A DNA stretch of 50,504 bases from Chloroflexota bacterium (GTDB lineage: Bacteria > Chloroflexota > Dehalococcoidia > Dehalococcoidales > RBG-16-60-22): assembly GCA_018829775.1 (NCBI GenBank), contig JAHJTL010000053.1, forward strand, positions 1 through 50,504, given 5' to 3'. The notes beneath the pieces were generated by a model. That model was given only the letters and a program-made list of their open reading frames with translations. It had not been told where the DNA came from and did not search any database. The position numbers were made by a program, and so were the translations under genes. Within the stretch, counting starts at the first letter, position 1, and each line of letters opens with the position of its first letter. Positions 1 through 50,504 of this stretch are shown piece by piece.

Positions 1-58
1 ATGTTATTGGAAAGTGTCAAACTCCGGGTTGAAGACTACATAACATTTACCTACAAGG

Positions 59-784
59 TTATTTGAAAAGCGACAAGTTTTCCAATTCTAACCTTTTATT
101 GTAGTAATCTATGATTTCTTCGTAGCTTTGATATTTGTAACGACTGTCAATTCTAATAAATGGTTCCTTTGTAATTCTACCTTTGAATTTCTCCTCGTTT
201 TCTTTACTTCCGATAATGTGGAAATCCAAATTAAATTCTACTAATTGATAGGTTCTGGCTAGTGCATCTCCTAGTGTCCCAATGCTGTCAACGATTTCAA
301 ATGCTCTTTTAGGAAACTTAAAACCCTTTTTGTTGAACCATATTACATCAATTCTTTTCACAGTCTCTATAATTTCTTGATAAGTAAATGGTGGCAATGA
401 ATTCATTGTTCTTAAACTACTCAACAAGATATTGTCTTTAAAGGTTGCTGTGGGGTCAGGTGTATAGGTATCAAATTGCTCGAAATTTCCAAGCTCTAAA
501 CAAATACCTTCTATAAAAGAATGCATCCTAACAGGACTCTTTTCGGTAATCGCTTTTATCTTTTCTTCTTCATACTCTTTTAATGCAAATATCCCAAAAC
601 CGATTTTCTTAAAATTACGATTATTTTTTATCTCACGATATAGCACTCCCCTAATTCCAGCCTGCCATTCTTTCATTTCTTTTGCGGCAGGGTAATACTT
701 TTCGATATTGCTGTATATAATATCCCAGGTGGCAGTACCACCATTATCTTCCATTAACTTTATTATCGCTTCAACTTTAGTCAT
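59..784 (-). CDS. Winged-helix plus nuclease-like protein (possible restriction-related)
   Basis: This 241-residue protein is not assigned to a named family with certainty. Residues 1-70 look like a winged-helix/HARE-type DNA-reading domain, as found at the N-terminus of some restriction enzymes (helical start, then GIRGVLYREI and a short beta wing ending IGFGIFAL). The C-terminal half has an IDVIWF strand, a RAFEIVDS strand, an ALARTYQL helix and a LDFHIIGS strand. That order resembles the PD-(D/E)XK-like folds in which a central Glu follows an ID strand, but the canonical Lys is not seen. It starts 2 bases after the stop of the upstream 57-residue gene, so the two are probably cotranscribed. 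The region is AT-rich compared with the rest of the window, which suggests transfer. A DNA-binding regulator is an alternative role. Confidence 0.6.
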   Translation of the reverse strand: MTKVEAIIKLMEDNGGTATWDIIYSNIEKYYPAAKEMKEWQAGIRGVLYREIKNNRNFKKIGFGIFALKEYEEEKIKAITEKSPVRMHSFIEGICLELGNFEQFDTYTPDPTATFKDNILLSSLRTMNSLPPFTYQEIIETVKRIDVIWFNKKGFKFPKRAFEIVDSIGTLGDALARTYQLVEFNLDFHIIGSKENEEKFKGRITKEPFIRIDSRYKYQSYEEIIDYYNKRLELENLSLFK

Positions 785-786
785 CT

Positions 787-960
787 TTACTTCTGCAGAC
801 TTTCTAACAATTCGTATTTCTCATATGAAAGCTCTTGTAATCCTTCATCATCTATATTCAATACTTGACGAATGGCATCAAATAATAAACCCTGCTCTCT
901 AAGCTTATTAAGAAGACGATATTTAGGATCACATTTAATCTCAATGATTATGCTGTCCAT
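787..960 (-). CDS. Small hypothetical protein, 57 residues
   Basis: This is a short open reading frame from ATG at 960 to TAA at 787-789, preceded by a GGAGGG ribosome site at good spacing on the minus strand. The protein begins MDSIIIEIKCDP and is charged and largely helical, ending in KYELLESLQK. It has no membrane segment or signal. It lies between the nuclease-like gene that ends at 983 and the gene that starts at 784, with gaps of 22 and 2 bases, so the three probably form one transcript. I do not recognise the family. It is not a frame-shifted C-terminus of the upstream endonuclease in any way I can see. Confidence 0.55.
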   Translation of the reverse strand: MDSIIIEIKCDPKYRLLNKLREQGLLFDAIRQVLNIDDEGLQELSYEKYELLESLQK

Positions 961-982
961 GAAACACCCTCCTTTGCATAAT

Positions 983-1525
983 TCAGACCAGAAACTGCTC
1001 TAGGACAGCCTCTTTTTCAGACCGAGCCTTCTTGTTATCCAAATCCCCACCAATTTTAAGCTCAATAAGATAGTGGTTATTGGTTTCCTTATCAATCAAG
1101 TAATAATCGCTATCGTGCCTTGTTATTGGCGATACGCCTTCTTTATTCATATCTCGCAAGCATTGATAATCGGCAATGCTAGGTCTTCTCTCATGTCGCT
1201 TGTATTTCTCAAGCATTTCAGCAATTTTGCTTGTTTGGGTTGGGTTTAGTGGGCCCTCAACGTTGTGCTTCACCTCATAGTTTAAACTAGCGATGTTAAT
1301 AGCTAAACCTTCAAGCATATTGCCAAGAGAGCTATCAAGAGAACGAGCTAAAGCGGAATAATATTGTATTTCTTTACCGAGAGCTTCAATAAACACATTG
1401 TGTATTTTCATGTTTATCGTGCCTTCGGGATTATCCACTTCACCCTCGTGTCGTCCCTTGAAGCCAGTCGCAAAGGCTTGCACTGAGGCTTTTACCATAA
1501 CTTTGATAGTGTCTAGTTTACCCAT
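983..1525 (-). CDS. TdeIII-like type II restriction endonuclease, C-terminally short
   Basis: This 180-residue protein probably belongs to the TdeIII/MjaII-like restriction endonucleases. The support is a SLDSSLGNMLE helix in the middle and a nuclease core with DSDYYLID followed about 13 residues later by YLIELKIGGDLDNKKARSEKEA. This fits a PD-(D/E)XK centre with Asp, then Glu-Leu-Lys. As I recall, family members run about 60-100 residues past this motif, whereas this one stops at LEQFLV. The other two frames downstream show no continuation, so a C-terminal deletion is likely and activity is doubtful. No methyltransferase gene is visible, but the cluster runs toward the left window edge and one could lie beyond it. 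The DNA is AT-rich, unlike its neighbours to the right. Confidence 0.6.
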   Translation of the reverse strand: MGKLDTIKVMVKASVQAFATGFKGRHEGEVDNPEGTINMKIHNVFIEALGKEIQYYSALARSLDSSLGNMLEGLAINIASLNYEVKHNVEGPLNPTQTSKIAEMLEKYKRHERRPSIADYQCLRDMNKEGVSPITRHDSDYYLIDKETNNHYLIELKIGGDLDNKKARSEKEAVLEQFLV

Positions 1526-2058
1526 TTGCCCTATTTTACCACATCATCAAACCAGTTTTACTATTTCTTCAACAGTCCTTGACACGTCGTGTTATAATAT
1601 ATTCAGAAATCTACAATTAAATATCAAGCGATACTTACCTTTCGTCTGTATATAGCTATAAGGAAATTTTAAGCACTCAGCGAAAGGAGTAAAACGTAAG
1701 GGAAAAGATAAAGATTGCCCAAATAATCGCCTGATATCCCCCAGAACTCAAACTGGCGGATGGCATAAAACGGCCAGCCAAACGAAAATGGCCTTCTGCC
1801 AGTGAAGAGTCCAAAGCCAACGGTAAACGTCCACCTCCAGCAACCAGTATTCTGAGCAATCGGGTAATCTGTATCTCCCAAACAGCAGGTTTAATTACAA
1901 CCTTTTTATCTTTTGTATTCCGTGCATATAAACTAGTATGAACTATTTACTTTGATAAAATCAGAATTCAGGGTGATACCCAGAAGAAAAAAGGAGGTGA
2001 TCAATTTCAAACAATCAATCGAGGAATCGCTGGATTAAAATTCTCTGAGGAGGAGTAA
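1526..2058. other. Gene-poor 533-base stretch
   Basis: I see no convincing gene here. Two overlapping minus-strand frames between about 1670 and 1880 begin only at TTG and lack a ribosome site. One of them ends in a hydrophobic stretch and may be a decayed membrane-protein fragment. The right end serves as leader for the TRAP operon and contains a full-length Shine-Dalgarno sequence at 1991-2002. No clear sigma70 promoter with both boxes was found for the TRAP operon. Confidence 0.5.
1991..2002 (+). promoter_or_regulatory. Extended Shine-Dalgarno without a canonical start codon
   Basis: The 12 bases AAGGAGGTGATC match the full anti-Shine-Dalgarno complement. No ATG, GTG or TTG follows at normal distance. 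The only frame in register starts at ATT (2004) and runs 14 codons to TGA at 2046-2048, which overlaps the ribosome site of the TRAP binding-protein gene. It could be a leader peptide, a ribosome standby site or chance. Confidence 0.3.
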
Positions 2059-3249
2059 ATGAAGAAAGGAAGAATAATTGCTGTAGTTATGGTTCTGGCA
2101 CTAATCAGCAGCGTTATTGCTGCCGGTTGTGCGGCACCAGCTCCCACACCAGCTCCCGCTCCGGCACCAGCTCCCGCTCCAGCACCAGCACCAGCTCCGG
2201 CTCCAGCACCAGCTCCGGCTCCCACTCCAGCACCATCACCAGCTCCAGCCGCACCGGCGGAAGTAATCACCTTGATAGGACAGTCATCCCTGCCCGCCGG
2301 AATGCCGGTAACCTGGGGCATGGAGAATTTAGCCAAGCGAATTGAAATCGCCACTCAGGGACGCCTTATCATGAAAGCTTACCCCGCCGGCGCCATCTGC
2401 CCGGCAACTGAAGAGCACAAGGCTCTTCAGACCGGCGTGCTTGACTGGGCCGGCAGCGGCGGCGGCTATATGAGAGGCGACATGCCGTGGGCCGGCTATC
2501 TCATTCAACCGGTAGCCGGCATGCCTCCGGAACCGCTCCAGATCTGGCTTGACAACGAGGGTTGTGATATAGCCAACAGGTGGTTCGAGACACTGGGGTG
2601 GGATTTATATTTTCCTAATGGTACTGGTTTCGCCGGGCCACCCGAGATATTCGGCCACTTCGACAAGGAGCTGAATACCGTCGCCGACCTGAAGGGGATA
2701 AAGATGCGATGCTCCGGTGACGGTGGCACCGTCCTCGGCCGCATGGGCGTCGGCCCGCTCTTCATGCCCCTGGGCGAAGTCTTCGAAGCCATGCAACGCG
2801 GCCTCATTGACGCCTACGAATGCAGTTCCCCGCGCTTTGACTGGGAAATGGGCCTGAATGAAGTGGGCAAGTACATCTACATGTCCCCGATACGGGCGCC
2901 CACCGAGGTCTACATGTTTCTGCTGAAGAAGAGCGTGTTTATGGCGCTGCCCGACGACCTCAAGGTAATCATTGAGGACATGGGCGTGGCGGAGACATGG
3001 GACTACCATAACCAGCTCATCGCCGGCGACGTCGAAGCGCTCCAGAACTTCAGAGACTACGGGAACATCGTGCTGCCTCTGCCCTCGGCAATAGAGGAGG
3101 CGTTCGGTCAAGAGGCCATAAAATACATCGATGAAGAGATGGCCAAGGACGCCGGATTTATGGAGGTGGCGCAGTCCCAGCGTGATTTTGCCAAGAACTG
3201 GAACGATTTGTACGGGCTTCCTTCCTGGGCCAAATGGTCATTCAAGTAA
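2059..3249 (+). CDS. dctP: TRAP transporter substrate-binding lipoprotein (DctP family)
   Basis: This is the extracytoplasmic binding protein of a tripartite ATP-independent transporter. It captures an organic acid outside the membrane and delivers it to the DctQM permease. Residues 1-23 form a signal peptide, and Cys24 in IAAGC is the probable lipidation site. Residues 25-67 are an almost pure Pro-Ala linker that would tether the domain to the membrane. The DctP fold starts near residue 70, and the family motif with a substrate-binding arginine is seen as ADLKGIKMR (Arg217). A GAGGAGGAG ribosome site precedes the ATG. The permease genes follow in the same direction after an intergenic hairpin. 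The ligand cannot be read from sequence; a carboxylate is expected from the arginine. Confidence 0.92.
   Translation: MKKGRIIAVVMVLALISSVIAAGCAAPAPTPAPAPAPAPAPAPAPAPAPAPAPAPTPAPSPAPAAPAEVITLIGQSSLPAGMPVTWGMENLAKRIEIATQGRLIMKAYPAGAICPATEEHKALQTGVLDWAGSGGGYMRGDMPWAGYLIQPVAGMPPEPLQIWLDNEGCDIANRWFETLGWDLYFPNGTGFAGPPEIFGHFDKELNTVADLKGIKMRCSGDGGTVLGRMGVGPLFMPLGEVFEAMQRGLIDAYECSSPRFDWEMGLNEVGKYIYMSPIRAPTEVYMFLLKKSVFMALPDDLKVIIEDMGVAETWDYHNQLIAGDVEALQNFRDYGNIVLPLPSAIEEAFGQEAIKYIDEEMAKDAGFMEVAQSQRDFAKNWNDLYGLPSWAKWSFK
2131..2250 (+). repeat. Pro-Ala codon repeat (six-base units)
   Basis: This is an imperfect tandem array of six-base units such as GCTCCA, GCTCCC and GCACCA that encodes the Pro-Ala linker of the TRAP binding protein. 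Units are whole codon pairs, so slippage would change linker length without shifting the frame. Confidence 0.85.
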
Positions 3250-3859: not shown

Positions 3860-5202
3860 TTAATATTAGCCCAGAGTTAGTCACCATAGCCATGCTCGGT
3901 GGCATCCTGCTTTTCGTCCTGCTTGGCTACCCCCTGGCCATTGTCGTCGGTGGTATGGGCATCGTCATGGGAATCGCCATGTTCGGGCCAAATATCGCAC
4001 TGGAAGTCATCTACCACCGTGTTTTCGAGTTGCTGAATAACTATATCATTATGGCGGCGCCGGGTTTTATCTTCATGGGCATCATGCTGGGGTACTCGGG
4101 AATAACCGAAAAAATGTTCTCCGCCATGTACCTGTGGCTCGCCGGTTTCCGTGGTGGGCTGGCCATAGTCACCGTACTAATCGGCACCATCCTGGCCGCC
4201 TGCGTCGGCATCATCGGCGCCTCGGTCACGGCGCTGACCATTATCGCCCTGCCCGCCATGATAAATCGAGGGTACAATAAAGCCTTGGCCTGCGGTGCGG
4301 TATGTGCCGGCGGCACCCTGGGCATCCTGATTCCTCCCAGCATCATGCTGGTAATCTACGGGCCAATGGCGGCAATCTCGGTAGGCAAGCTGTTTTTTGC
4401 CGCCTTCATCCCCGGGTTCCTCCTTTCCGGGTTATACTGTAGCTACCTCGCCATACGCTGTTTCTTCCAGAAAGAACTGGCGCCCCCCGTGCCGGTTGAG
4501 GAGAGGGCCGTCCCCTGGGGGAAGAAAACCTGGGACCTGCTCACCTCCATGGTGCCACCACTGGTACTTATTCTGTCCGTGCTGGGGAGTATTTTCATGG
4601 GTATCGCTACCCCCACCGAGGCTGCCTCCGTCGGTGCCCTTGCCGCCACGCTTATGGCGGTCGCTTACCGTCGTTTTAACTTCAATATCCTTAAAAATAC
4701 CATGACCGAGACGATAAAAGTCACCGGCATGGTGCTCCTGGTCGGTGCCACCGCTTATGCCTTCGTCGGCGTATTTATGCGCGGCGGCGGCGGCGATGTC
4801 GTGAAAGAGATGATTCTGGGCGCTCCCGGTGGCAAGTGGGGCTGCTTTGCCATTATCATGTTCATCGTTTTCCTCCTGGGCTATTTCATTGACTGGCTGG
4901 GAATTCTGTTCATTGTCGTTCCCATAATAACGCCGGTTGGCGCGGAGCTCGGTTTCGACAAGCTCTGGTTTGCCATGATGATCTGCGTTAACCTGCAGAC
5001 GTCTTTCCTGACCCCTCCCTTCGCCTATGCCATATTCTACCTCCGCGGTGCCGCCGACCCATCTCTGGGGGTAACCACGGGTGACATCATCCGTGGGGTA
5101 TGGCCTTTTATTATTCTCATCTTGATTGCGCTTGGGCTGTGCATCATCTTTCCCCAGATAATCCTCTGGCTTCCAGGGCAGATGATAACCGGCTTCAAGT
5201 AG
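3856..5202 (+). CDS. dctM: TRAP transporter large permease (DctM family)
   Basis: This is the large channel-forming subunit that drives substrate uptake with a sodium or proton gradient. The 448-residue length is normal for DctM. About 12 hydrophobic segments are visible. Family features include PGFIFMGIMLGYSG near residue 68, GTLGILIPPSIMLVIYG near 155, GIATPTEAASVGALAA near 250, and PVGAELGFDKLWFAMMI with NLQTSFLTPPFAYAIFYL near the C-terminus. It overlaps the DctQ stop by 4 bases. A strong intrinsic terminator lies 38 bases after its stop and closes the operon. Confidence 0.93.
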   Translation: MINISPELVTIAMLGGILLFVLLGYPLAIVVGGMGIVMGIAMFGPNIALEVIYHRVFELLNNYIIMAAPGFIFMGIMLGYSGITEKMFSAMYLWLAGFRGGLAIVTVLIGTILAACVGIIGASVTALTIIALPAMINRGYNKALACGAVCAGGTLGILIPPSIMLVIYGPMAAISVGKLFFAAFIPGFLLSGLYCSYLAIRCFFQKELAPPVPVEERAVPWGKKTWDLLTSMVPPLVLILSVLGSIFMGIATPTEAASVGALAATLMAVAYRRFNFNILKNTMTETIKVTGMVLLVGATAYAFVGVFMRGGGGDVVKEMILGAPGGKWGCFAIIMFIVFLLGYFIDWLGILFIVVPIITPVGAELGFDKLWFAMMICVNLQTSFLTPPFAYAIFYLRGAADPSLGVTTGDIIRGVWPFIILILIALGLCIIFPQIILWLPGQMITGFK

Positions 5203-5239
5203 TAAGAGAGTTGTTCTGAATCAGATAACTTTTTCTGAC

Positions 5240-5273
5240 AACCGCCTCGACAAAATCGAGGCGGTTGCTTTTT
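5240..5273 (+). terminator. Rho-independent terminator of the TRAP operon
   Basis: An 11-bp perfect stem (AACCGCCTCGA with its complement) encloses a CAAAA loop and is followed by GCTTTTT. Its place just after the large permease stop fits the end of the dctPQM transcript. Confidence 0.9.
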
Positions 5274-5288
5274 AGAATCGTATATTAT

Positions 5289-5317
5289 TTGTCATTTCAC
5301 ATGTCTGTCATTATAAT
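5289..5317 (+). promoter_or_regulatory. Sigma70-type promoter of the aminotransferase gene
   Basis: TTGTCA at 5289-5294, a 17-base spacer, then a perfect TATAAT at 5312-5317. Transcription would begin near 5324, leaving a leader of about 90 bases that contains a short reading frame (5333-5434). Confidence 0.75.
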
Positions 5318-5332
5318 CTTAAAGGTACAGGT

Positions 5333-5434
5333 ATGTTTCACACATCCATAAATATGCCTGACTTGGTTTCCGATATAGTGCGCCAGATAATTACCGCCGG
5401 AAGGAACATAGAACGATGCCTGAGGAACGGGTAA
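5333..5434 (+). CDS. Possible 33-residue upstream reading frame
   Basis: ATG at 5333 opens a 33-codon frame ending TAA at 5432-5434, inside the first codons of the aminotransferase in another frame. An AAAGGTACAGG stretch lies before it but is a weak ribosome site. If translated it would couple to the aminotransferase start. It could equally be chance coding in a leader; I do not recognise the peptide. Confidence 0.25.
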   Translation: MFHTSINMPDLVSDIVRQIITAGRNIERCLRNG

Positions 5435-6609
5435 CAGGGATGAAAAAAAGGACTGCCGAGCGCGTTGCTAAAGTATCCGACGTCGGCTTTGCCAAATTTT
5501 TAAGCCTGTTCCATTCTCTGGAAGGTGGCATTTCACTGAGCGTTGGGGAGCCTGATTTCCCCACACCCTGGCACATCTGTGAGGCCAGCGTTGAAGCCAT
5601 GAAGAAGGGCATCACCACCTATACCCCCACAGCTGGGTTCCCCGAACTGCGAGAAGCCGTTGCCCGGCATCTGGAAAAACTCTACGGCATAAAATATGAC
5701 CCGAAGACTGAAATCGTCATTACCGTTGGCGCCAGCCAGGCGATGGACCTTGCTTTCAGAACGATTCTGGACCCGGGCGATGAGGTTATCATGCCCGACC
5801 CTTACTACGTGTGCTATCCTTCCTGCATCGTCCTGTCGCACGGTGTGCCTGTTACCGTACCGACCAGACCGGATAATGACTTCAAACTGGAGGCGGACCG
5901 GATTGAAGCTAAAATTACGCCAAAGACGAAGGTCATCCTCTTCGGCTATCCGGCCAACCCGACGGGTACCGAACTCACCCGCGAGGAATATGCCGAGATT
6001 GCCAGAGTGGCAGAAAAGCACGACCTGCTGGTCATCTCGGATGAAATTTACAGTCGCCTGACCTACGACGTAGAGCACACCTGTTTCCCCACACTGCCCG
6101 GAATGAAGGAGCGCACCATTCTCCTGGACGGTTTCTCCAAAGCATACGCCATGACCGGCTGGCGCCTGGGCTATGCCGCCGGGCCGGCGGAAATCATGGC
6201 CGCCATCAGCAAGGTGCACCAGCACACCATGCTCAGCCCGTCCAGCATGGCACAGCTGGCCGCCCTGGAAGCCCTGAAAAGCGGCGAAGAAGATGTCCAG
6301 CGGATGCTGGCCGAGTATAGCCGTCGTCGCAAGGTAATTGTACGCGGCCTTAATGACATAGGGCTCAAATGCCACGAGCCGAAAGGGGCCTTCTATGCCT
6401 TCCCTTCGGTTCAGGTTACCGGTATGACGTCAGATGAGTTCACCGAGAATCTCCTCAAAGAAGAAAAGGTAATCGTCATGCCGGGCAGTCTTTTCGGCCG
6501 GCAGGGCGAGGGATACGTGCGCTGCTGCTATGCCACCTCTCTATCCGATATTGAAGAAGCGCTGCGCCGCATGGCCCGCTTCGTCGAGCGCCATCGCGCT
6601 CATCCCTGA
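5416..6609 (+). CDS. PLP-dependent class I/II aminotransferase
   Basis: This cytosolic enzyme moves an amino group between an amino acid and a 2-oxo acid. The 397 residues carry the fold-type I marks: YPANPTG (Asn181), VISDEIY (Asp209), the pyridoxal-phosphate lysine in DGFSKAYAMTGWRLGY (Lys242, Arg250), and a C-terminal carboxylate-binding arginine in GEGYVRCCYA. It resembles the aspartate/aromatic aminotransferase subgroup Igamma, so substrate range cannot be fixed from sequence. It is transcribed alone, from the promoter at 5289-5317. A GGAAGGA site 10-11 bases upstream supports the 5416 start; ATG at 5440 (MKKRTAERV) is an alternative that would trim eight residues. Confidence 0.92.
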   Translation: MPEERVTGMKKRTAERVAKVSDVGFAKFLSLFHSLEGGISLSVGEPDFPTPWHICEASVEAMKKGITTYTPTAGFPELREAVARHLEKLYGIKYDPKTEIVITVGASQAMDLAFRTILDPGDEVIMPDPYYVCYPSCIVLSHGVPVTVPTRPDNDFKLEADRIEAKITPKTKVILFGYPANPTGTELTREEYAEIARVAEKHDLLVISDEIYSRLTYDVEHTCFPTLPGMKERTILLDGFSKAYAMTGWRLGYAAGPAEIMAAISKVHQHTMLSPSSMAQLAALEALKSGEEDVQRMLAEYSRRRKVIVRGLNDIGLKCHEPKGAFYAFPSVQVTGMTSDEFTENLLKEEKVIVMPGSLFGRQGEGYVRCCYATSLSDIEEALRRMARFVERHRAHP

Positions 6610-6695
6610 CCAGTATAAAATATCGGTCTGAACACCAAATGAAGCTGACCCCTCACATTATCCAGATTAACGCTTAAAAATAATTCGACGTACTC

Positions 6696-6724
6696 TTTAC
6701 TACTGATGAAAATGGAGTTATTAT
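6696..6724 (+). promoter_or_regulatory. Candidate sigma70 promoter for the response-regulator cluster
   Basis: TTTACT at 6696-6701, a 17-base spacer, then TATTAT at 6719-6724. A start near 6731 would leave a short leader before the ATG at 6750. Confidence 0.5.
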
Positions 6725-6749
6725 ATGAAAAAGGTTTTCGGGGTGCCAA

Positions 6750-7379
6750 ATGGCAGACGAGAAAATAAAGATTCTGGTAGTCGATGACGAGGAAACAGTA
6801 CGGTTACTGTTTCAGCGAGTATTGCAGGCCGCCGGTTATGATGCGGTCATTGCGGCTGACGGTGAAGAAGCCCTGTCGGTTATTGCCAATGGTGATATTG
6901 GTGTGGTGCTGCTGGATATCAAAATGCCCGGACTTTCTGGTATCGACGTGCTGGGCAGAATAAGCACCGATTGGCCGAATCTCTGCGTCATCATGGCAAC
7001 CGCGGTTGCCGACATTGAGACCGGAGTTGAGGCTATGAAGTTGGGTGCCTACGACTATATCACCAAGCCATTTGACCAAGATGAAGCGCTGCTTAAAATC
7101 CGTCGGGCTATTCAGAAATGGCAGGAACGACTTCAGGATAAGCAGCACTTACTCCAGCTCGAGCAAAACATCACCGAACAGACCAGACGATTGCAGGGGC
7201 AGTTCACCGAGCTAGTTAGCAGCCTGGCCAGAGAGCACCAGCTACTTCTGCAACTGGCGGCAAAGCAGGAAGCCGGTAAAAAGTCCCCGCTCTCCGGTCT
7301 TCCCCCGGAACTGCAGGGGCCGATTTCCACGGTCAAAGAATTCAGAGATGCTCTGCTCAAGATTCTGCACAGATCCTAG
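6750..7379 (+). CDS. Response regulator with receiver domain and coiled-coil tail
   Basis: Residues 1-122 form a CheY-like receiver. The acidic pair is Asp12/Asp13, the phosphorylation site is Asp56 in LLDIKMPG, Thr84 sits in the switch strand and Lys106 in YITKPFD. The remaining 85 residues hold no DNA-binding or enzymatic domain that I can identify. They form a predicted coiled coil rich in Gln, Glu and Leu, then a short tail with PPELQGPISTVKEF. Such proteins act through protein contacts, in a phosphorelay or on a partner regulator. The next gene, an OmpR-type regulator, begins 42 bases later in the same direction. No kinase gene adjoins it. Confidence 0.88.
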   Translation: MADEKIKILVVDDEETVRLLFQRVLQAAGYDAVIAADGEEALSVIANGDIGVVLLDIKMPGLSGIDVLGRISTDWPNLCVIMATAVADIETGVEAMKLGAYDYITKPFDQDEALLKIRRAIQKWQERLQDKQHLLQLEQNITEQTRRLQGQFTELVSSLAREHQLLLQLAAKQEAGKKSPLSGLPPELQGPISTVKEFRDALLKILHRS

Positions 7380-7421
7380 TTTATCTCTTAATCGATTTTG
7401 CTGATAAAGGGTTATTAGCTG

Positions 7422-8114
7422 ATGAAGAAACGCATTCTCATCGTCGATGATGAAGTGAGCATCCTGAAATTTCTCCGCTCTAATCTGGAAGATAGAGGTT
7501 ACGCGGTCATTAGCGCATCCAATGGTGAAGAAGCACTCAACACCATAGAAATGGAACTGCCTGACCTCATTGTTCTGGACGTCATGATGCCCAAAATGGA
7601 CGGCTTTGAGGTATGCCGCCGGCTGCGTGAATGGTCACAGATTCCCATAATTATGCTCAGCGCCCGGGGCGATGAAAAGGATAAGGTGAAGTGCCTTGAC
7701 CTCGGAGCCGATGACTATATCGTCAAGCCTTTCGGGGCCAATGAACTCATGGCACGGGTCAGTGCTGTCCTCCGGCGCACCAAAACGGCTGACATGTCTC
7801 CCGTTAGGTCTTCCATCGCCAGCGGGGACCTCGCCATCAATTTTGCCAAAAGACAGATAACTCGCGCTGGCACAGAAGTGAAACTGACCCCCACTGAATA
7901 TGCCCTCCTTCAGGAACTGGCGGTGAATTCAGGTAAAGTACTCACCCATACCCACCTGTTAAACAAGGTCTGGGGCCCTGAATACCGTGATGAAAGGGAA
8001 TATCTGCATGTCTTTGTCCGCCGGCTGCGTTCCAAACTGGAGCCAAACCCTGACAACCCCACATACATCCTCACCGTTTCCGGCGTTGGCTACCAGTTCA
8101 TAGATACCGGGTAA
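7422..8114 (+). CDS. OmpR/PhoB-family response regulator
   Basis: This two-domain transcription factor has a receiver at residues 1-120, with acidic residues Asp9/Asp10, phosphorylation site Asp53 in VLDVMMP, Ser80 and Lys102 in IVKPFG. A winged-helix effector spans about 133-228, with LTPTEYALLQEL, the recognition-helix region LLNKVWGPEYRDEREYLHVFVRRLRSKLE and the closing hairpin VSGVGYQF. The 230-residue length is standard. It follows another receiver protein by 42 bases and is closed by a terminator at 8150. The cognate kinase is not adjacent, since the nearest kinase on this strand begins at 12345. Confidence 0.93.
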   Translation: MKKRILIVDDEVSILKFLRSNLEDRGYAVISASNGEEALNTIEMELPDLIVLDVMMPKMDGFEVCRRLREWSQIPIIMLSARGDEKDKVKCLDLGADDYIVKPFGANELMARVSAVLRRTKTADMSPVRSSIASGDLAINFAKRQITRAGTEVKLTPTEYALLQELAVNSGKVLTHTHLLNKVWGPEYRDEREYLHVFVRRLRSKLEPNPDNPTYILTVSGVGYQFIDTG

Positions 8115-49985: not shown

Positions 49986-50504
49986 ATGAGCCTGCGCACG
50001 CGTCTTTTCGCCACCTATTCTCTGGTCGTCATTCTCTGCCTGGGGCTGGTTGCCCTGTCAGTTACGGTTATCCTGCAGAGCTCTCGTGACCGCCTGACCA
50101 TGGAACGGCTGGATACCATCGCCCGACCCATTTCCATACAGGTTACCACCATGATGCGCCGTCAAATACCAATGGCCGAGATACTGGACAACCTGGTAGA
50201 ACAGGCGGAGAAGAACAAGGTCAATATTTTACTGGTGGATGGCGAGGGCAATATTCTGCGGCAGTTCTCGCCGGGGCAGACCAGTTCCCGGCCAACTATC
50301 GAAGTATTGCCAGTCGATGTGCCTCATGTTATTTCGGAGCCGGTACAGGGAAAATTCGTCACCGAAAACGGCCAGACTTACATTTACGCCGCCTATCCCC
50401 TTGTCCGCCCTTCCGGTGCATCTGACCCCCAGCGCATAGAGACCCTGGTTCTTTCCGTACTGCGTACCAAGGCCGCCGCCATCATGGCAGGCCTGTTCAG
50501 CCCC
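49986..50504 (+). CDS. Sensor histidine kinase, N-terminal part (cut by window end)
   Basis: The frame is open to the right edge, giving 173 residues. A membrane segment lies at about 8-30 (LFATYSLVVILCLGLVALSV), followed by an outer sensor domain with VNILLVDGEGNILRQFSP and YIYAAYPLVRPSG. The second membrane segment, HAMP and kinase domains are expected beyond the window. Its start follows the regulator stop directly (TAG then ATG), the usual arrangement of a two-component operon. The kinase call rests on position and on this sensor layout, since no catalytic box is visible yet. Confidence 0.75.
   Translation, partial: MSLRTRLFATYSLVVILCLGLVALSVTVILQSSRDRLTMERLDTIARPISIQVTTMMRRQIPMAEILDNLVEQAEKNKVNILLVDGEGNILRQFSPGQTSSRPTIEVLPVDVPHVISEPVQGKFVTENGQTYIYAAYPLVRPSGASDPQRIETLVLSVLRTKAAAIMAGLFSP

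Follow-up and report, generated by a model that had tools for sequence, protein, structure and literature searches.

DpnI and DpnII occupy one locus. A pneumococcus has either one or the other (PMC3573125), and in these Streptococcus pneumoniae systems DpnI, a protein with a nuclease domain first and a winged helix last, takes the place of an adenine-methylating restriction-modification system (PMC3573125, PMC4117772). The same two building blocks recur in the winged-helix fusion endonucleases, m6A-dependent type IV enzymes with a PD-(D/E)XK-like domain, which are reported mostly to have no methyltransferase neighbour and sometimes to occur beside a methyltransferase inactivated by frameshift (PMC11037411). 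HARE-HTH fused restriction endonucleases, in which a HARE-like winged helix accompanies a restriction-nuclease domain, have been proposed to tell modified from unmodified DNA (PMC10853773).

Here we describe a locus that recalls each of these systems. It lies at the left edge of the window, by which we mean the whole 50,504-bp stretch that was analysed (contig C53 of genome G000, which comprises 118 contigs), and centres on a 241-residue protein combining a winged-helix-like region with a restriction-nuclease-like domain. Its setting resembles the DpnI/DpnII exchange, with the domain order reversed; unlike DpnI/DpnII, remains of the old system are still present at the locus. The family shares with the winged-helix fusion endonucleases its domain composition and its general want of methyltransferase neighbours, occasionally relieved by an inactivated one; unlike those enzymes, it carries an E-x-E or E-x-x-D motif, and its nuclease domain has no Pfam match. 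The likeness to the HARE-HTH fused enzymes is likewise qualified, the HARE match of the window protein falling below the Pfam cut-off. A further relative is the plasmid-borne 420-aa 'type II restriction endonuclease' (L083-L089; PADLOC PDLC03534), which has a homologous C-terminal domain and a different N-terminal half in which no Pfam winged helix is matched. Finally, TdeIII-type systems (L092, G024, G078) agree with the window in gene order and in the family of their nuclease, which in L092 and G024 is 60-69% identical to the window's, and L092 and G078 also have the same methyltransferase (61-76% identity); unlike in L092 and G078, the window genes are broken at their facing ends, with another nuclease gene between them. 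We did not find this arrangement described in the literature searched (HARE-HTH, DpnI/DpnII, insertion/homing, modification-dependent winged-helix nucleases and single-locus replacement), insofar as the sources were available, and a search on TdeIII returned nothing.

Results

An AT-rich insert with an empty site in a sibling genome

As an earlier note on this DNA had observed, the left edge of the window is distinctly AT-rich: GC is 0.362 over positions 1-1525 versus 0.535 over 1578-50504, which makes it the second-lowest of 490 sliding 1525-bp windows, the lowest outside the AT-rich region being 0.469. The note had bounded this feature at 1-1525, which is too short; the insert ends near 1577 and runs about 470 bp to the left onto contig C78, for a span of 2,049 bp (window -471 to 1577; GC 0.36 over 1-1577 and 0.377 over the full insert). 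The tight series of three genes that it described was borne out as minus-strand ORFs of 180, 57 and 241 aa, separated by 22 and 2 bp (Table 1). When positions 1-1577 were resampled 300 times under a Markov model, the longest ORF obtained was 173 aa, so that no resample reached 180 aa.

Table 1. Features of the insert and its right-hand neighbour, in window coordinates.
Feature	Position	Strand	Remarks
Methyltransferase (N6/N4 DNA) remnant, start	1..62	-	continues on C78 (L003:19454-19879)
Junction, 3' end (gene direction) of the replaced stretch	58..63		methyltransferase homology directly adjoins the 241-aa stop codon; common 4-bp ATAA
241-aa protein	59..784	-	HARE/forkhead-like winged helix ~1-70, restriction-nuclease-like domain ~85-235
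57-aa ORF	787..960	-	strong ribosome site (AAGGAGG); stop 2 bp before the 241-aa gene
TdeIII-family restriction endonuclease fragment, 180 aa	983..1525	-	PF09520; N-terminal 178 residues of ~272
Other junction	986..992		TdeIII homology to G078 ends
Acquired insert, part inside the window	1..1577		remaining ~471 bp on contig G000:C78; 2,049 bp in total
Upstream region of the neighbouring transporter gene	1578..2058	+	homology to sibling G004 restarts at 1578

C78 ends in 141 bp that match window 1-141 without a difference, and it continues the window leftwards. At the opposite end, window 50364-50504 is identical over 141 bp to C105:1-141. Since both ends share exactly 141 bp with other contigs, these overlaps look like assembly-graph joins of fixed length; C105 probably extends the window to the right on the strength of that identity.

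The insert is flanked by a glycosyltransferase-like gene on one side and a transporter operon on the other, both identified by reading of the sequence. Close to its beginning, at window 2127-2270, the binding-protein gene of the transporter encodes a long low-complexity linker rich in proline and alanine, and G004 has a similar one. Eight stretches from relatives, located via the glycosyltransferase-like gene, were compared with it. In the sibling G004 (85% identity), homology to the window sets in again ~50 bp past the glycosyltransferase-like gene, at the counterpart of position 1578, and leads on to the same transporter start. The adjacency of the flanking genes in G004 supports the C78-C53 join, and the empty site between the same two neighbours, together with the AT-richness of the 2,049-bp insert, agrees with the earlier note's description of the island as acquired, for which it had proposed such a comparison. 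As G004 is the only direct comparison, loss in G004 may be the alternative to gain in the window: the transporter start is not seen in the seven other stretches, one of which stops immediately behind the glycosyltransferase-like gene, and the methyltransferase fragment, the 241-aa protein and TdeIII have no match in any of the eight. The distribution of the two proteins is patchy. Among 61 genomes in each case, the TdeIII fragment has matches in its own genome and G024 only, and the 241-aa protein in its own genome and G058 only; TdeIII is present in 16 of 400 genomes of the phylum.

Remains of a restriction-modification pair on either side of the new gene

The 180-aa protein, taken in the earlier note for a TdeIII-like nuclease, does match RE_TdeIII (PF09520; E 3e-17, 63.5 bits, cut-off 27.2), with coverage of positions 31-170 of 242 only. 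The C-terminal third of the gene is missing, and the 178 residues that are left include, by reading, an E-x-K motif (ELK). G024 encodes a 272-aa protein with 68-69% identity to the fragment, and the IMG/VR contig L092 a 282-aa protein with 60%. A frameshifted yet complete TdeIII running into the 57-aa ORF was rejected: DNA homology to G078 stops at 992, and none of the frames read beyond residue 178 looks like a TdeIII C-terminus.

The next gene to the left, on C78, is a 141-aa minus-strand ORF that matches an N6/N4 DNA methyltransferase (PF01555, E 1e-26, positions 73-221). Its N-terminal part is gone, the catalytic PPY motif is lacking, and it is frameshifted near the junction with the 241-aa gene. 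DNA homology to the intact enzyme of G078 runs from window position 62 leftwards (75% over 353 bp), and the remnant is 76% identical to the G078 methyltransferase and 61% identical to the fused methyltransferase of L092. Between the two junctions, 929 bp in the window replace 536 bp of G078 in which the nuclease ends and the methyltransferase starts. Lost with that stretch are the final third of the one gene and the initial third of the other, and the replacement encodes the 57-aa ORF and the intact 241-aa protein.

Three further loci give the layout of such pairs. On L092 (positions 4807-7546), a full-length TdeIII-type nuclease gene overlaps a gene for a fused N6/N4-D12 methyltransferase. 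The two genes adjoin in G078, where the nuclease contains a TAG. In G024 the nuclease is followed by what read as D12-like and N6/N4-like methyltransferases, both of which match PADLOC methyltransferases. All three thus have the order nuclease, methyltransferase, with no gene between.

Because both genes are truncated and the methyltransferase is without its PPY motif, a working restriction-modification system is absent at the locus. The earlier note had supposed that the island might be the end of such a system, with the methyltransferase beyond base 1. Inspection to the left indeed turned up an N6/N4 methyltransferase on C78, as a C-terminal part only, so that the partner was rightly anticipated and a functional system is rejected. 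It is very probable that the locus is the carcass of a TdeIII-type restriction-modification pair whose inner parts have been replaced. The 241-aa protein, which the note could not place as a standard partner, is a member of another nuclease family and occupies the gap in the broken pair.

Domains of the 241-residue protein

The note had also called this protein winged-helix/nuclease-like, with a HARE-type N-terminus. The nuclease half of that description finds support in profile homology, the C-terminal domain being homologous to that of the plasmid-borne 'type II restriction endonucleases' (hhalign 99.2%, E 1.3e-19). The winged helix is fainter: taken singly, every protein has only a weak resemblance to HARE/forkhead winged helices over its first 70 residues, with the window protein alone reaching E 0.028 for Forkhead and 0.084 for HARE-HTH, both under the cut-off, and with HARE-HTH found at E <= 0.1 in 5 of 15 family members, the window's included (best 1.1e-6). 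The PADLOC REase_II model PDLC03534 is matched by 8 of the 15 members at E <= 0.01, a threshold that the window protein itself does not reach, and no Pfam or NCBIfam model exceeds its cut-off for the nuclease domain. Pfam homing-endonuclease families gave no match either, at E <= 1 for the window protein and at E <= 0.1 for the 15 members, which leaves room for a divergent fold.

Nine residues are invariant in the 15-member family alignment (H88, G93, G99, T106, L121, D146, W149, P158 and E163). The nuclease domain has E-x-E or E-x-x-D rather than E-x-K: 10 of 14 aligned members carry E-x-E, and the remaining four, the window protein and its three closest relatives, carry E-x-x-D with one extra residue instead. 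Three members of this clade come from the window's order and one from a Saganbacteria genome. The change from E-x-E to E-x-x-D could signify a loss of cleavage in the clade.

A structure model of the full protein was poor (pLDDT 44). In the low-confidence model of the nuclease domain (pLDDT 55), strands and helices follow one another as in a PD-(D/E)XK core, and D146 and E163 fall on two consecutive strands. Foldseek found nothing for the model at E <= 0.001 (best 0.11). VIA-align ranked nine RNA-polymerase chains first (Z 6.6-5.1), one of them titled RPB5; Nt.BspD6I, PaqCI, EcoT38I and Shedu nucleases came next (Z 5.0-4.7), a range attainable by a common arrangement alone. In sequence searches of the PDB, the 241-aa protein hit designed tetratricopeptide chains (E 1.4e-6, the sum over eight copies of one 23-residue match of ~7.5 bits, none of which passes alone), the TdeIII fragment the interferon-gamma receptor (E 0.005), the family profile a forkhead (E 0.17) and the plasmid profile coiled coils of viral spikes (E 6.8e-7 at best, in a region other than the shared domain). 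We set these four sets of matches aside as having no bearing on function.

The family profile matches 38 of 393 genomes of the class at E <= 0.001, ten of them near full length (E <= 1e-60), and most of the other matches are to the nuclease domain only. Relatives of the 241-aa protein were not found in phages, and one lies on a Halobacterium plasmid. Scans of viral contigs gave no match with queries A1, A7, A6 and A8; queries A4, A5 and A2 gave L082, L091 and L092.

The 57-residue ORF and other small companions

ORFs of this length are common by chance: 200 Markov resamples of positions 1-1577 averaged 2.2 that were 57 aa or longer, so that the call of the 57-aa ORF depends on its ribosome site (AAGGAGG) and tight coupling. 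We rejected it as a conserved partner, since no relative occurs in the family loci examined, 17 of which were searched again, and the small ORFs of other clades of the family are unrelated to it. Small ORFs as such are nevertheless frequent beside the nuclease genes: tightly placed ones (same strand, within 5 bp) accompany 9 of 16 nuclease genes versus 16 of 86 other ORFs of at least 200 aa at the same loci (Fisher p 0.003), an excess that is only suggestive, as upstream and downstream small ORFs are mixed in the count. Left out of it were the window (which has one), L026, L027, L028, L082 and L091 (none within 5 bp), and L140.

Neighbourhoods of the nuclease family

We classed the neighbours of the nuclease at 24 loci (the window, L009, L011, L102 with two genes, L103, L104, L105, L020-L028, L082, L091 and L138-L142) by reading ORF lists over ~2.5-6 kb around the gene, or less at contig ends (e.g., L103). 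Intact DNA methyltransferases lie beside it at three loci, namely L082 and L091 from IMG/VR, each with N6/N4 and D12 enzymes, and L023, with one. Broken restriction-modification genes lie beside it at seven (the window, L009, L104, L105, L020, L024 and L140). At the other 14, restriction-modification genes were not seen near the nuclease in the ORF lists; one of these, L026, has a large ORF ~2 kb away that reads as HsdR-like. Uncounted were the weaker loci L143-L147, for which a scan with TdeIII and methyltransferase models gave no match at E <= 0.1, along with unfetched profile matches, the plasmids L083-L089, L090 (the same place as L082), L106 (the same place as L011) and the mirror copy of L140. 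The PPY motif is absent from all five methyltransferase fragments and present in all ten complete enzymes, a contrast that is partly by construction because the fragments were called broken for shortness.

TdeIII pieces occur at four of the 24 loci. In the Saganbacteria locus L009, the nuclease gene is 80% identical to the window's and also ends LFK-stop; upstream of it lies an N-terminal TdeIII remnant of ~50 codons, 39% identical to L092 over 51 aa (E 7e-7) and 77% identical to the window over 62 bp, which our own TdeIII model did not flag at E <= 1. A 293-aa protein with no Pfam match (L009:4711-5592) comes just before this remnant and may belong to that insert. L104 holds a differently built family member between a methyltransferase scrap upstream (PF01555 E 0.021, under the cut-off; 68% over 22 aa to the G399 enzyme) and a TdeIII C-terminal end downstream, and its sister L105 keeps the TdeIII end and has no methyltransferase scrap (PF09520 positions 205-242; E 3e-15 in L104, 1e-14 in L105). 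In G399, which has a complete pair of the L104 type, the methyltransferase is directly 5' of the nuclease; given that order, both the window and L104 keep the outer parts of the genes, with the inner parts gone. The TdeIII genes are broken at codon ~178 in the window, at ~50 in L009 and near model position 200 in L104 and L105, which have that point in common. Remains of the old genes start at the nuclease stop codon in the window and within ~25 bp of the stop in L104 and L105. A match of L142 to the TdeIII model (E 0.055, 24 positions) was taken as chance.

L024 and L140 carry the same methyltransferase (71% identical over 90 aa) cut differently, as ORFs of 193 and 108 aa, which looks like gradual loss beside a kept nuclease and not like a single replacement. 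The L140 contig (G675:C48) seems to be palindromic, its halves mirroring each other and the nuclease locus being present twice, and may be an assembly artefact.

Selection on the nuclease

The ratio dN/dS is 0.03-0.04 between the window and L009, a pair in which synonymous sites are saturated and one of three methods gave no value, and 0.09-0.13 between L104 and L105. For the window and L009, the purifying selection could for the most part have acted before the partner genes were lost. Between L011 and L102 (G058 and G466), where the neighbours are the same in both and no restriction genes were seen nearby, it is 0.13-0.25, and we regard this comparison as the best evidence suggesting that the protein can act without a partner. 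The TdeIII scrap of L104 and L105 has changes of 12, 3 and 36 by codon position, a coding pattern, and its third positions differ at 36 of 54 versus 90 of 309 in the nuclease gene. This greater divergence of the scrap, along with its coding pattern, indicates a history that was not one clean event.

Discussion

By analogy with DpnI and DpnII, and with the winged-helix fusion nucleases that occur next to inactivated methyltransferases, we favour, at somewhat less than even chances, a reading in which the 241-aa protein is a solitary, modification-dependent nuclease that displaced the restriction-modification pair. The protein would work alone, with no protecting methyltransferase; its winged helix would read DNA, and its nuclease domain would cut foreign DNA bearing a modification absent from the host, in the manner of type IV enzymes. 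The exchange would be in the style of DpnI for DpnII, the new enzyme being viable only because the old methyltransferase was destroyed, and the 57-aa ORF may, at a guess, be an accessory or control protein. What speaks for a solitary enzyme is that no intact methyltransferase lies beside the window gene, that selection keeps the nuclease without a partner, and that the situation recurs, with broken restriction-modification genes at 7 of the 24 family loci and none in the ORF lists at 14. If so, the locus records the turning of a restriction-modification system into its opposite logic, and its break points can be read to the base; a similar course seems to have been followed independently in another branch of the family (L104/L105). 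No D12 (Dam-type) methyltransferase exceeds the cut-off in genome G000 (one place lies under it, E 3.3e-4), and five other places have N6/N4 methyltransferase-like ORFs, which might conflict with the enzyme or protect from it.

The intact methyltransferases at L082, L091 and L023 suggest that at least some relatives are ordinary type II enzymes. The window protein could then be the former cutter of a dying type II system, its own methyltransferase lost, persisting inactive (with the altered E-x-E) or unexpressed. We consider this unlikely, if still a serious contender: it fits the match of the C-terminal domain to type II enzymes, the motif change in the window clade and the broken state of both the TdeIII and the methyltransferase genes here, but neutral decay would not keep E-x-x-D conserved in four members, nor a dN/dS well below 1 in a partnerless pair. 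That the protein is an active type II enzyme, with a protecting methyltransferase whose gene lies at some other place in the genome, has a slim chance of being correct; the five N6/N4 methyltransferase-like places would offer candidates, but none is linked to the 241-aa gene. Slimmer still is the prospect that the C78-C53 join, and hence the methyltransferase remnant, is an assembly or binning artefact from another organism or strain. The contig does break exactly at the locus, where the assembly graph probably branched; against this, the 141-bp overlap contains both the 3' end of the 241-aa gene and the methyltransferase junction, an overlap of the same length occurs at the window's other end, and the sibling G004 has both flanking genes adjacent.

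The junctions bear on whether the nuclease gene moves by itself. A mobile or homing-like cassette of a small ORF and a nuclease gene, landing in TdeIII-type operons or selectively breaking them, would account for old-gene remains that begin at or near the nuclease stop, for the several copies that stand alone between other genes, for a TdeIII piece in L104/L105 more diverged than the nuclease gene, and for TdeIII pieces at 4 of 24 loci in at least two lineages when TdeIII occurs in 16 of 400 phylum genomes. That clustering would equally be produced by a defence-island hot spot, however; the TdeIII break points vary, the small ORFs of different clades are unrelated, the L009 piece escaped our TdeIII model, and no Pfam homing-endonuclease family is matched, so we judge such a cassette quite improbable. 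A related proposal, rather unlikely though less so, is that a two-gene cassette of a small ORF and a winged-helix or related nuclease has recurrently been substituted, both in Saganbacteria and in the phylum of the window, for the inner halves of TdeIII-type operons, either as repeated conversion to a solitary modification-dependent system or as a selfish operon-breaking nuclease. Each such event would remove the methyltransferase-facing end of the old cutter and the catalytic part of the methyltransferase.

Related domain architectures

The nuclease domain also occurs in other company. At L027 (positions 5308-6426) it is preceded by a region that resembles EVE, with E 0.0075 for PF01878 and 2.7e-8 for PRK00809, neither of which attains the curated cut-off; such a region would suit a reader of modified bases. 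The plasmid family of ~420-aa 'type II restriction endonucleases' (L083-L089) has the domain in common with the 241-aa protein. No gene named DNA methyltransferase lies beside any of these seven, a generic 'methyltransferase' is found within 5 kb in three, and several lie near metal or efflux genes.
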